64,000 nucleotides of DNA from Massilimicrobiota sp. An134 (GTDB taxonomy: Bacteria > Bacillota_I > Bacilli_A > Erysipelotrichales > Coprobacillaceae), in the NCBI RefSeq assembly GCF_002160815.1, contig NZ_NFLH01000006.1:1-64000 (forward strand), given 5' to 3'. The notes under the pieces are model-generated. The model was not told the origin of the DNA, searched no databases, and saw only the letters and a list, made by a program, of their open reading frames with translations. This document shows positions 243 through 32,396 of this stretch, piece after piece. The position numbers and the translations under genes are program-made. Position 1 is the first letter of the stretch, and every line of letters starts with the position of its first letter.

Positions 243-1274
243 GTGCCTATGATGAAAGGAAAGAAAAAATATCTTTTAAATATTGCTGTTATTCTTCTGA
301 TTGGTGGAACAGTTATTTATTTATCTATAGGAAATCAATGGAAACAAGTTGTTGATGCTTTTGCACATGCTAAGATTTCTTGGATTATAGCAATGGCTAT
401 TGTCATGTTTTTATATTATATTTTCGATGCTTTTTCATTGTTATATTTTGGTAGATTTTATAAAAAGGATTATACTTATAAACAATCTTTTATAAATGCT
501 ATTAGTGGAACTTTTTTTAATGGAATAACACCATTTGCAAGTGGTGGACAATTTGCTCAAGTGTATATTTTTAATAAACAAGGGATTGCCCCTACGTATT
601 CTGCAAGTATTTTATTGATGTGTTTTATTTGTTATCAGAGTGTACTTGTTATTTATACGGGTATTGTGTTAATATTTAAATATCAGTATTTTATAGAACG
701 TCCTGCTATATTTAGTTTGGTTGTGCTAGGATTCTTAATTAATTTTGTTGTGATTGCGGCTTTGTTTGGTGGTGCTAAATCTAAAACTTTACAGAATTTT
801 CTAACACATACTATTCTTAAATTTTTAACTAAAATTCGTATTATTAAAGATTATGAATCGACATGTTTTAAAGTTAAAACATATTTATCTGATTTTCGTA
901 ATCAATTAGGACTTTTACAACGTAATAAACCAGTTTTAATACGTTCTTGTATTTGTAATGTTATTAAGTTAACTATTATTTACAGTATGCCTTTTTTTAG
1001 TGCAAAGGCATTAAATTTAGATGTATCATTTTATGATTTTTTTGATTTTATTGGACTTTGTTCATGCATATATTTAATTAATGCATTTTTACCTATTCCT
1101 GGATCAAGTGGTGGTAGTGAAGGTGTTTATCTTTTACTATTTAGTTTTTTAGGACCAGTAGGTGTGTCTTCTTCTATGTTCTTATGGCGCTTTATGTCAT
1201 ATTATATGGGACTTATTATAGGAGCATTAGTTTTTTCTCTTGATAAAGAAATAAATCGAACGAGATTGGAGTAA
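243..1274 (+). CDS. Flippase-like integral membrane protein (LPG synthase TM / YbhN family)
   Basis: A 343-residue polytopic membrane protein with about eight hydrophobic segments. It matches the lysylphosphatidylglycerol synthetase TM-domain family (UPF0104/YbhN type), including the conserved NAFLPIPGSSGGSEG stretch near residues 280-295. It lacks the C-terminal MprF synthase domain. In this family such stand-alone proteins are thought to move lipids across the membrane; the substrate here is inferred from the glycosyltransferase gene 4 nt downstream. The reading frame opens with GTG at 243, but ATG at 249 or 252 is more likely the start. The only good Shine-Dalgarno (209-215) is far upstream, separated by a hairpin. 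Confidence 0.82.
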   Translation: MPMMKGKKKYLLNIAVILLIGGTVIYLSIGNQWKQVVDAFAHAKISWIIAMAIVMFLYYIFDAFSLLYFGRFYKKDYTYKQSFINAISGTFFNGITPFASGGQFAQVYIFNKQGIAPTYSASILLMCFICYQSVLVIYTGIVLIFKYQYFIERPAIFSLVVLGFLINFVVIAALFGGAKSKTLQNFLTHTILKFLTKIRIIKDYESTCFKVKTYLSDFRNQLGLLQRNKPVLIRSCICNVIKLTIIYSMPFFSAKALNLDVSFYDFFDFIGLCSCIYLINAFLPIPGSSGGSEGVYLLLFSFLGPVGVSSSMFLWRFMSYYMGLIIGALVFSLDKEINRTRLE

Positions 1275-1278
1275 TTTT

Positions 1279-3264
1279 ATGAATATAGCTTTATTTAGTG
1301 ATACTTATTTACCCGATATTAATGGTGTAGCGACATCTACACATATTCTAAAAAAAGAATTAAAAAAACATGGGCATCATGTTTTAGTTGTGACAACTAT
1401 ATTACCTCATAATAGTGATTATATTGATGAGGATGATGGAGTATTACGTTTGCCTGGTATTGATTTAAAAAAATTATATGGTTATCGTGCATCCAATATC
1501 TATTCTTTTAAAGGTATGAAAGAATTGAAAGAATTCCAGCCTGATATTATTCATATTCAGACAGAATTTGGGATAGGTATTTTTGGGAAGATAGCTGGTG
1601 AAATTTTAAACATTCCAGTTTGTTATACTTATCATACAATGTGGGCTGATTATTCTCATTATATTACGCCTGGGAATTTAAAAGCTGTGGATCAGGCGGC
1701 TAAAAAAATTATTGAAAAAATTTCTAAGATATATGGAAATAGCTGTTCTGAGCTTATTGTACCTTCACAAAAGACAGCTGATGCATTGAGAAAATATGGT
1801 ATTTCTAATTCTATTCATGTGATTCCAACTGGTTTGGAACTAGAGGCATTTGCATTAGAAAATAAAAATCAAGGTTTAGTGGATCAGATTTTGCAGGAAT
1901 ATCATTTACAGGATAAGTTTGTTGTTATTTTTTTAGGTAGAATTGCTCCTGAGAAAAGTATTGAAATTTTAATAGATGCAATGTCTGATATTGTGAAAAA
2001 AGAAGATAAGATATGTCTTATGATTGTTGGCGGTGGGCCACAACTTGAAGAATTAAAAACTTTGGTTCATCAAAAAGGATTAGAAAGTCATATATTCTTT
2101 ACAGGACCAAAAGAGAGTGAGTATGTCCCTTCGTTTTATCATGCAGCACAATTATTTGTTTCGGCATCAGTAACGGAAACACAGGGGCTGACTTTTATTG
2201 AGGCTATGGCTAGTGGGTTACCTGTTTTAGCAAGATATGACAAAAATCTGGATGGTGTTATTGTCGATGGTCATAATGGTTATTTCTTTAAAGACCAACA
2301 AGATTTAGTTGAGAAAATTATTCATATGTATCATTCTGATTTAACACAACTTTCTACTTGTGCGAGAAACGATGCACAAAAATATAGTAGTGAGAATTTT
2401 TATCAGCATATTCTACGTACATATGAACAGGCATTAGCAAAACATCATTATTGTTATAAAGTTGTTTCTATTACTCCTGAAAATAATCATCTATACACTG
2501 TTGCTTTTCAATTTGATCATCATCAAATTCTATTGAGTCTATCTGGACAGGTTATTGAACGTTATGGCTTATCTGTTGGACAAGTTGTAGATAGAGAAGA
2601 ACTAGATGCTTTAAAAGATCAGGAACAAGTTTCTAAAGCTTATAAATTGGCATTAAAGTATTTAACATATAAAGATTATACTTATGCGAAAATGCAAAAG
2701 AAACTTATGGATAAAGGAGATTTTGATGATATTCAAGTAGAGATGACAATGGATTTATTGATGCAAAAAAATCTTATTGATGATGCTGAATACACTAGAA
2801 ACTATTTTCAAAAGGCAAAACGATTGGGAATGGGAATGAACAAAATTATTTATCATCTCAAAAAAGAAGGTGTTTCACCATTTATCATTGATGAGTATTT
2901 GGAAGAATATTCCCAAGATTTGGAATATGATAAAGCTGTGGAGTTGGTACAAAAACTTTATAATGAAAATACCACAAGACCACAATACGCATTAATACAA
3001 AATATTAGAAATAAATTGTTTAATAAAGGTTTTTCACAAGATGTAGTGGAAAGAGCCATTGAAAATTTTGATTTTTCAATACCTAAAGAACATACTATGA
3101 ATTTACTGACAAAAGAATATTATCGTGTATATAATCGTTATAAAAATAGATATCAATCTCATATTCTTAAAAGTAAAATTATTACTTTTTTAGTTCAAAA
3201 AGGCTATGAATATGATGATGTTATGGAAATTATTCAACAATTATGGGAGGACACAAATGATTAA
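1279..3264 (+). CDS. Fusion of a family 4 glycosyltransferase with a RecX regulatory protein
   Basis: A single 661-residue frame. Residues 1 to about 390 are a complete GT4 glycosyltransferase (N-terminal SDTYLPDINGVATS, donor-binding GRIAPEKSIEILI, and an E-x7-E-type region around ETQGLTFIEAMASGLPV), most like monoglycosyl-diacylglycerol synthases. Residues about 393-661 look like a full-length RecX (basic start, VERYGL-type strand, then the three-helix repeats ALKYLTYKDYTYAKMQKKL, MDLLMQKNLIDDAEYT and further repeats). RecX modulates RecA filaments; the glycosyltransferase works at the membrane. No stop codon, frameshift or internal ribosome-binding site is visible at the junction. The next gene overlaps its end by 8 nt. 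Confidence 0.85.
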   Translation: MNIALFSDTYLPDINGVATSTHILKKELKKHGHHVLVVTTILPHNSDYIDEDDGVLRLPGIDLKKLYGYRASNIYSFKGMKELKEFQPDIIHIQTEFGIGIFGKIAGEILNIPVCYTYHTMWADYSHYITPGNLKAVDQAAKKIIEKISKIYGNSCSELIVPSQKTADALRKYGISNSIHVIPTGLELEAFALENKNQGLVDQILQEYHLQDKFVVIFLGRIAPEKSIEILIDAMSDIVKKEDKICLMIVGGGPQLEELKTLVHQKGLESHIFFTGPKESEYVPSFYHAAQLFVSASVTETQGLTFIEAMASGLPVLARYDKNLDGVIVDGHNGYFFKDQQDLVEKIIHMYHSDLTQLSTCARNDAQKYSSENFYQHILRTYEQALAKHHYCYKVVSITPENNHLYTVAFQFDHHQILLSLSGQVIERYGLSVGQVVDREELDALKDQEQVSKAYKLALKYLTYKDYTYAKMQKKLMDKGDFDDIQVEMTMDLLMQKNLIDDAEYTRNYFQKAKRLGMGMNKIIYHLKKEGVSPFIIDEYLEEYSQDLEYDKAVELVQKLYNENTTRPQYALIQNIRNKLFNKGFSQDVVERAIENFDFSIPKEHTMNLLTKEYYRVYNRYKNRYQSHILKSKIITFLVQKGYEYDDVMEIIQQLWEDTND

Positions 3265-4204
3265 AATTAAAGATATGAAATGTGGTGACGATAATGTGGA
3301 ATTTACAGCAATGATTTCACATGTCACTTTAGGAAAAACAAATGGTGCTCATAAAAGTAATTACTTGAGTATTGTTTTTCAAGATGATACTGGGACAATT
3401 GATGCCAAGTTATGGAATGCCAGTCAGGAACATATTGAATCTTTAAAAACAGGTGCTGTTGTAAGAGCAAAAGGTGATATTATTAAATATAGCGATGATC
3501 GTCAAATGAAGCTTATATCTATTGATGATGTTTCATATCAACGTTCACAACAAATTCAGTTTTTGGTTAAGGCACCAATGGATAGTGAAATGATGATGAA
3601 AGAATTAAAACAATATATTCAGCGTATTTCTAATACAAAATTATATGTTTTAACGAAACATCTTTTTGAAAATAATTTTGAAAAACTTAAAGTTTATCCT
3701 GCTGCCAGTAAAAATCATCACGAATTTGTATCTGGTTTAGCTTTTCACACATTGTCTATGTTAAGAGTAGCTGATGCTTTAATGAATGTTTATCCTGAAT
3801 TAAATGCTGATTTGTTATATTCTGGTATTTTGCTTCATGACATTGGAAAAACAGTTGAATTAAGTGGACCAGTTGTTCCAAGCTATACATTTGAAGGACA
3901 GATGTTAGGACATATCTCTATTGCACAATCCATGGTTTATGCTGCAGCACAGGAGCTTCATATTGAAGGTGAAGAAGTCACATTATTACAACATATGATC
4001 TTATCTCATCATGGGAAAAATGAATATGGTTCACCAGTACTTCCACAAATTAGAGAAGCAGAAATGTTGCATATGATTGATAATATGGATGCCAGAATGA
4101 ATATGTTTAATAAAGCTTTAGATACATTGGAATCTGGAGAAACTTCAAAACGTATTTTTTCATTAGAGAATAGAACGATTTATAAACCAAAAATGTATGA
4201 ATAA
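3257..4204 (+). CDS. yhaM: 3'-5' exoribonuclease YhaM family (OB fold plus HD domain)
   Basis: 315 residues, matching the length of Bacillus YhaM (about 314). The N-terminal OB fold binds nucleic acid (FQDDTGTIDAKLWNAS, roughly 50-65). The HD phosphohydrolase domain shows HHEFVSGLAFHT, LLHDIGK and LSHHGKNEYGSP, the metal-binding histidines and aspartate. It trims RNA 3' ends. ATG 3257 was chosen over the upstream in-frame ATGs because GGGAGG lies just before it and it gives the family length. It overlaps the glycosyltransferase-RecX gene by 8 nt, so the two are translationally linked. Confidence 0.92.
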   Translation: MIKIKDMKCGDDNVEFTAMISHVTLGKTNGAHKSNYLSIVFQDDTGTIDAKLWNASQEHIESLKTGAVVRAKGDIIKYSDDRQMKLISIDDVSYQRSQQIQFLVKAPMDSEMMMKELKQYIQRISNTKLYVLTKHLFENNFEKLKVYPAASKNHHEFVSGLAFHTLSMLRVADALMNVYPELNADLLYSGILLHDIGKTVELSGPVVPSYTFEGQMLGHISIAQSMVYAAAQELHIEGEEVTLLQHMILSHHGKNEYGSPVLPQIREAEMLHMIDNMDARMNMFNKALDTLESGETSKRIFSLENRTIYKPKMYE

Positions 4205-21954: not shown

Positions 21955-22030
21955 GGAGGTTTAGCTCAGTTGGGAGAGCATCTGCCTTACAAGCAGAGGG
22001 TCAGCGGTTCGAGCCCGTTAACCTCCACCA
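21955..22030 (+). tRNA. tRNA-Val (anticodon TAC)
   Basis: 76 nt with encoded CCA. The acceptor stem GGAGGTT pairs with AACCTCC; the anticodon loop reads CTTACAA within CTGCC/GCAG arms; the T arm has GGTTCGAGCC. First of six clustered tRNAs. Confidence 0.96.
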
Positions 22031-22035
22031 TTTAT

Positions 22036-22111
<76 letters not shown>

Positions 22112-22116
22112 TATAC

Positions 22117-22200
22117 GGGGAGGTAGCGAAGTGGCTAAACGCGGCTGACTGTAACTCAGTTCCTTTCGGTTCGGTGGTTCGAATCCGCCCCTCCCCACCA
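22117..22200 (+). tRNA. tRNA-Tyr (anticodon GTA)
   Basis: 84 nt, class II tRNA with a long variable arm and encoded CCA. Acceptor GGGGAGG with CCTCCCC; the anticodon loop contains CTGTAAC, giving GTA. Confidence 0.95.
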
Positions 22201-22207
22201 TTTCTGT

Positions 22208-22283
22208 TGGGATATAGCCAAGCGGTAAGGCAACAGACTTTGACTCTGTCATTGCGCTGGTTCGAATCCAGCTATCCCAGCCA
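22208..22283 (+). tRNA. tRNA-Gln (anticodon TTG)
   Basis: 76 nt with encoded CCA. Acceptor TGGGATA with TATCCCA; anticodon arm CAGA-CTTTGAC-TCTG gives TTG. Confidence 0.95.
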
Positions 22284-22286
22284 TTT

Positions 22287-22362
22287 GACCCGCTAGCTCA
22301 GTAGGTAGAGCATCTGACTTTTAATCAGAGGGTCAGGCGTTCGAGTCGCCTGCGGGTCACCA
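22287..22362 (+). tRNA. tRNA-Lys (anticodon TTT)
   Basis: 76 nt with encoded CCA. Acceptor GACCCGC with GCGGGTC; anticodon arm CTGA-CTTTTAA-TCAG gives TTT. Confidence 0.96.
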
Positions 22363-22369
22363 TTCTTTT

Positions 22370-22443
22370 GCGGGTGTAGTTCAATGGTAGAACTTCAGCC
22401 TTCCAAGCTGACTACGTGGGTTCGATTCCCATCACCCGCTCCA
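22370..22443 (+). tRNA. tRNA-Gly (anticodon TCC)
   Basis: 74 nt with encoded CCA. Acceptor GCGGGTG with CACCCGC; anticodon loop CTTCCAA gives TCC. Last gene of the six-tRNA cluster. Confidence 0.95.
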
Positions 22444-25578: not shown

Positions 25579-25708
25579 CTCTTATTAAGAACCACGAGAT
25601 GAGGATCTATGAAGTGGTGGCAACCCTTGTGTAAAGAAGGTGCCTTACCTAGCAAGTTAGACTTGAACAATAAGAGGAAAGAAGGCTTTCCTCTTGAAAG
25701 CTTTTTTT
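25579..25708 (+). ncRNA. SAM-I (S-box) riboswitch with terminator, upstream of metK
   Basis: P1 is CTCTTATT (25579-25586) with AATAAGAG (25669-25676). The core shows TATGAAGTGGTGGCAACC (25608-25625), AAGGTGC and CTAGCAAG, matching S-box landmarks, though the usual GGAGGGA segment is replaced by GAGATGA. AAGAGGAAAG (25672-25681) can pair with CTTTCCTCTT (25686-25695) as an antiterminator. The competing terminator is GCTTTC (25685-25690) with GAAAGC (25696-25701), then T7. SAM binding should favour P1 and termination. Confidence 0.88.
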
Positions 25709-32176: not shown

Positions 32177-32185
32177 AGTAGCGTT

Positions 32186-32396
32186 AATACGATGAAGAGG
32201 ACAAGTAGATAAAGAATTTGTATCAGAGAGGAAAACGGTGGCTGAAAGTTTTCTTACAATGCATTTATTGAATTCACCTTGGAGTGCGACTAATCATCGC
32301 CGCGAAGCAGCGTTATTGCAGTAAAGGTGCATAACATTTGTTATGAATTAGGATGGTACCGCGATACAATCGTTCCTATGTGGAACGATTTTTTTA
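32186..32396 (+). ncRNA. T-box riboswitch, Phe-specific, upstream of pheS
   Basis: The leader shows the stem I apical sequence GGTGGCTGAAAG (32237-32248), the specifier codon TTC at 32273-32275 followed by ACCTTGGAGT, and the T-box AGGATGGTACCGCG (32350-32363). Its TGGT would pair with an ACCA tRNA end, fitting tRNA-Phe. The terminator is AATCGTTCC (32368-32376) with GGAACGATT (32382-32390) plus T7. Uncharged tRNA-Phe should switch on pheST. Confidence 0.95.

Follow-up and report, generated by a model that had tools for sequence, protein, structure and literature searches.

A fused gene for an Mgs-like glycosyltransferase and RecX in Erysipelotrichales and its likely origin from overlapping neighbouring genes

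The fused gene and its neighbourhood

The window, i.e. the whole stretch of 64,000 nucleotides analysed here, carries on its forward strand a 661-codon open reading frame (1279..3264, +) which is free of internal stops and joins a GT4 lipid glycosyltransferase (GT) to RecX in one protein of 661 amino acids (ORF, Pfam and NCBIfam), just as the earlier note had read it. The glycosyltransferase half comprises residues 1-390 (1279..2448, +; Pfam, NCBIfam and alignment) and is followed by the RecX half at residues 392-661 (2452..3261, +; Pfam, NCBIfam, structure match and model), which consists of N-terminal strands and a helical C-terminal part. Residue 391 (2449..2451, +) marks the junction, lying between the last GT helix and the first RecX strand of the predicted model.

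Directly upstream, a flippase-like membrane protein (LPG_synthase_TM / TIGR00374) is encoded at 243..1274 (+), ending 4 nt before the fused frame, and on the other side a yhaM-type 3'-5' exoribonuclease gene (3257..4204, +), with ATG 3257 as its likely start, shares 8 nt with the 3' end of the fused gene. This cluster of flippase, GT, RecX and yhaM is conserved and common to the order carrying the fusion and to the outgroups. Elsewhere, the window holds a partial 5S rRNA at its edge (1-80), a tRNA cluster (21955-22440), a SAM riboswitch (25579-25676) and a T-box leader (32183-32380).

Domain content and family assignment

Both halves had been called complete, and domain searches of each part with Pfam and NCBIfam agree. 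In the window protein, the Pfam domains Glyco_transf_4 (residues 14-189) and Glycos_transf_1 (211-354) score above their cut-offs, as do RecX_HTH1 (454-490, 48.1 bits) and RecX_HTH3 (610-652, 48.9 bits; cut-off 26), with RecX_HTH2 (501-541) at 24.9 bits falling slightly below the same cut-off of 26. The best NCBIfam model for the whole GT half is that of the GT4 enzyme alpha-monoglucosyldiacylglycerol synthase (Mgs, NF049988), which covers residues 1-388 with 263.9 bits and does not reach its curated cut-off of 400. The RecX model NF010733 spans residues 400-654 (model positions 11-262 of 267) with 153.1 bits, below a curated cut-off of 240 which is reached in 0 of 244 genomes of the order. 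Since the equivalog cut-offs are missed by both halves, they are named Mgs-like and RecX by domain content and not as certified members of these families.

The assignments extend to related proteins. Among 36 aligned fused proteins, the Mgs model matches all 36, HTH3 is found in 35 and HTH1 in 33 (Pfam, E <= 0.001), and the catalytic-type EX7E pair E300/E308 is conserved without exception in an alignment of 28 fused proteins. A complete GT4 domain pair together with the EX7E residues, one of the criteria for the Mgs family, is hence present, and the GT half is predicted to be a complete, Mgs-like GT4 lipid glycosyltransferase of the MGlcDAG-synthase type. At the structural level, GT-B fold neighbours were found for this half using Foldseek. 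The search with the whole chain against the PDB gave glycosyltransferases and related sugar-transfer enzymes only, among the 50 matches listed, and is uninformative on RecX because the GT half dominates it; the RecX identity rests on Pfam, NCBIfam and the sequence-level match of this half to the solved RecX structures 3d5l and 3e3v.

In the genome of 2.56 Mb, searches with PF02631 and NF010733 returned the fused copy as the single RecX, which answers the question raised earlier of another recX; the idea of a dispensable copy backed by a second gene was rejected accordingly. RecA, the presumed partner of RecX, is present in one copy (458.7 bits). A close second Mgs paralogue was likewise absent from the same genome, the next relatives being distant GT4s (best E 1.3e-15). 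Compared with its families, the window protein thus differs from Mgs by its lower score and the C-terminal RecX, whereas it shares with RecX the model match, the similarity to 3d5l and 3e3v and the status of the only RecX, yet lacks an own start for this half, which is joined to a lipid enzyme. Strong purifying selection acts on either half: dN/dS was 0.05-0.10 for GT and 0.02-0.12 for RecX in all 11 close fused pairs compared (Nei-Gojobori), with several of the underlying dS values exceeding 1 and hence rough.

Distribution in the order

A survey for the same fusion, as the earlier note had proposed, was carried out in 244 genomes of the order Erysipelotrichales. GT and RecX share one open frame in 196 of them, with a RecX match present in 235 and absent in nine. 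In six further genomes, the frame runs over the junction, yet either a contig end truncates it or part of the GT is broken or missing (G040, G059, G135, G141, G181, G241), six carry adjacent but separate GT and RecX frames (G127, G150, G173, G178, G182, G188), and 27 have a RecX without an intact attached GT, a number which includes G240 with a GT piece beside recX at a contig end. Two of the separate cases, G182 and G127, do not match the beginning of the RecX profile and may reflect decay or misassembly.

The 196 fused cases are composed of 147 genomes with a match to the window protein at an E-value of 1e-80 or better (for 14 of these, the evidence consists of E-values <=2e-110 plus frame lengths of 665–711), 48 more and G004; at least three (G197, G206, G222) reach a contig end yet cover the junction. 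G004 (L152) is counted as fused in spite of its weak RecX half; a reading as GT only was discarded in view of its single 625-aa frame with a RecX half. Of 43 genomes in the family to which the window belongs, 40 are fully fused, the exceptions being G040 (contig end), G080 (69% complete, no match) and G059 (GT frame broken). The last of these, a single-contig genome from the window's genus, has its GT split into two overlapping frames near codon 220 with RecX intact (L159, G059:C1:2060000-2066500), which represents either a sequencing error or a real lesion.

That the fusion might be an artefact of assembly or a frameshift is suggested by the split forms in relatives. The recurrence of this open frame in 196 of the 244 genomes, single-contig ones such as G003, G027 and G068 included, shows, however, that the fusion is neither chance nor assembly error; an assembly artefact is ruled out by the survey, and the artefact explanation as a whole is given practically no weight. 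Convergent fusions elsewhere were sought in a class sample of 395 and a phylum sample of 392 genomes, which overlap, and were rejected: among the matches listed, those outside the order stop at the GT end and none passes query residue 410.

Origin from overlapping genes

In the outgroups, GT and recX are two distinct genes which lie side by side and overlap. Most commonly, the recX start codon is a GTG that lies in the +1 frame, 22 nt upstream of the end of the GT stop codon, and the GGAGGT-type Shine-Dalgarno sequence (SD) of recX sits inside the GT coding sequence. Of 20 outgroup rows, 17 have an SD 5-mer together with a start codon at the overlap, always in the +1 frame, although these rows are not independent counts because L112 and L167 are near-copies and most of the rows fall in one clade. 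At the corresponding place, SD and start were seen in 1 of 81 rows with fused genes (L045, frame 0). None of the 7 split rows from within the order has them, nor does any of the 22 rows that lack a recX partner; the 22 include, by score threshold, the fused G004 (L152), which has no such motif. L109 and other rows whose GT frame stops before the profile end are omitted from this count. A close counterpart of the fused gene is provided by the mgs-recX pair of uncultured Bacilli (for example L105, L116 and L164), which has the same flippase and yhaM neighbours where the contig shows them, while differing in consisting of two genes with the described overlap and a recX with its own SD and GTG in the +1 frame. 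In outgroup loci such as these, the 22-nt overlap with its conserved, nested SD also constrains both the residues and the codon choice at the C-terminal end of GT.

Relatives with two genes at the locus, which the earlier note had taken as a possible refutation, do exist; the fusion nevertheless stands, and they point to its origin instead. A frame change inside the overlap would be the simplest path from mgs and recX to the merged gene, and the recX start signal, useless after the merger, would then have decayed. Because GT and recX were operon neighbours beforehand, the pairing, which had been called unexpected, deserves that description only in part.

The number of fusion events was assessed with two trees, each built by a quick method. 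On the GT tree of 134 rows, the label "fused" needs 8 changes, a number which is inflated because contig-end fragments and G004 are labelled unfused. In the GT+RecX tree, comprising 77 rows chosen from the GT-tree loci, a branch with an SH-aLRT of 89 (not starred) separates the 54 rows of the order from the rest. A split clade with full support, made up of G173, G178 and G188, is nested within fused relatives, and G182 is nested within another fused clade. Most likely, one fusion was followed by several later losses, rather than fusion having occurred repeatedly, with the root and deep nodes not firmly resolved in these trees; the single event would date back to the ancestor of the order.

The junction and the number of products

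According to an AlphaFold2 prediction from 36 fused proteins (mean pLDDT 86.6, pTM 0.59), the final helix of GT (371-390) leads almost at once into the initial RecX strand (392-400) within a block of pLDDT 84-86, and a flexible linker is absent at the junction. As the pTM is modest, the relative orientation of the two halves is not confidently predicted.

Two products might arise from the locus, either by proteolytic cleavage of the fused protein or by additional synthesis of RecX from an internal start. The strong own start of outgroup recX inside the GT gene is in line with such an origin of a second product, as are possible in-frame starts with an SD near the junction in some fused genes. 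This signal is left, however, in hardly any fused row (the single case given above), the GT helix runs into the RecX strand with no exposed linker in the model, and in the window a scan for in-frame ATG, GTG and TTG from 25 codons before to 75 codons after the GT end gave 2 codons, neither of which reaches an anti-SD energy of -4 kcal/mol. The latter result bears out the earlier statement that no internal ribosome-binding site is visible, and two products appear distinctly improbable overall. As possible internal starts with a fair SD occur in some other fused genes (L004, L094, L102 and others), two products are conceivable there, and a single product is claimed for the window with moderate confidence only.

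Natural dissolution of the link

Members of the order have lost the link by more than one route. In the single-contig genome G084, a full RecX lies in frame behind a GT cut down to about 115 residues (L157:2761-3918, -), the GT part of which has no Pfam GT match and retains a GT-like start. A standalone recX is found directly upstream of yhaM in the examined cases G109, G133, G139, G157, G201, G221 and G227, so that at least there GT was lost from the same locus. Conversely, the 96% complete genome G114 has kept GT, with a RecX match absent. Hence, the halves can live apart in both directions, and the fusion has most likely been lost since by re-splitting, by loss of GT with RecX kept and by loss of RecX. 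In G186, a second, standalone RecX (G186:C35:3818-4555, +; 249-aa frame) occurs beside the fused gene in the same genome.

Functional interpretation

The preferred reading, to which a probability of roughly 0.6 is assigned, is that of a single bifunctional polypeptide with two largely independent activities, in which the fusion persists by descent owing to the later loss of the separate recX start signal. One transcript and one start codon would give rise to one protein, the N-terminal half of which would act at the inner membrane face and glycosylate diacylglycerol or a similar lipid, probably with glucose, possibly working with the flippase encoded directly upstream, which would handle its product. 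The C-terminal half, as the cell's only RecX, would limit or disassemble RecA filaments; for B. subtilis, RecX is described as a negative modulator which disassembles RecA filaments (PMC7031210). Both activities would stay separable. A tolerated gene fusion, one of the two options offered by the earlier note, is accordingly the best fit to the overlapping neighbours in the outgroups and the several ways of dissolution in the order.

The other option, a coupling of envelope status to recombination, is possible, but nothing in the data requires it. Here, the membrane-bound GT would tether RecX at the membrane, or RecX-bound DNA or RecA would modulate lipid glucosylation, thereby linking membrane state and recombination. 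Such a coupling is regarded as unlikely, even though it can draw on the retention of the fusion in 196 of 244 genomes with a junction that lacks a linker, a conservation which could alternatively be read as a sign that the covalent link is useful. It can also draw on the literature: bundles and DNA-free aggregates of E. coli RecA interact with anionic phospholipids (PMC6363387), MGS-type enzymes require anionic activator lipids (PMC3916417) and, by the title of Vikstrom et al. (2000), double-stranded DNA stimulates a lipid-balance enzyme of Acholeplasma laidlawii. On this basis, RecA filament control might take place at, or be gated by, an anionic-lipid surface, and the fused enzyme might sense DNA or RecA and adjust its glycolipid output, a proposal given slightly less credence still. 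Repeated dissolution (six split genomes, 27 with RecX but no attached intact GT, and G114 with GT but no RecX) argues against coupling, however, as does the inter-domain orientation, which the model does not predict with confidence.

Fusions of operon neighbours are known as "Rosetta stone" fusions. The present case corresponds to this concept, since the genes are separate and adjacent in relatives and form one frame here, whereas the usual inference of one common pathway is not obvious for GT and RecX; the fusion resembles a long-standing union of neighbouring genes and is no proof of a new pathway. In the full-text literature, judged by titles and the beginnings of abstracts and with most subscription papers outside its scope, no relevant description of a GT–RecX fusion was found, and in one match, PMC3814617, RecX and the co-searched term stand apart in the text passages concerned. 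While the component families are known, a joined form found across an order, with an origin that can be read, appears to be new.

The fusion is significant because it is fixed across an order of common gut Bacillota, most members of which encode both parts as one protein. Its birth can be read at the nucleotide level, from overlapping frames with a nested SD through the putative merger to signal loss, and nature has undone it several times. Fused, split, GT-less and RecX-less relatives hence constitute a ready series in which the effect, if any, of linking a RecA regulator to a membrane enzyme could be studied. Annotation is affected too: automatically assigned names may cover one half only, and a length-based search for recX would miss the fusion. 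A different C-terminal partner is seen in G133, where a divergent Mgs-like GT4 and a C-terminal VTT domain (PF09335) are encoded in one 628-aa frame that contains no RecX (L160:1280-3163, -).
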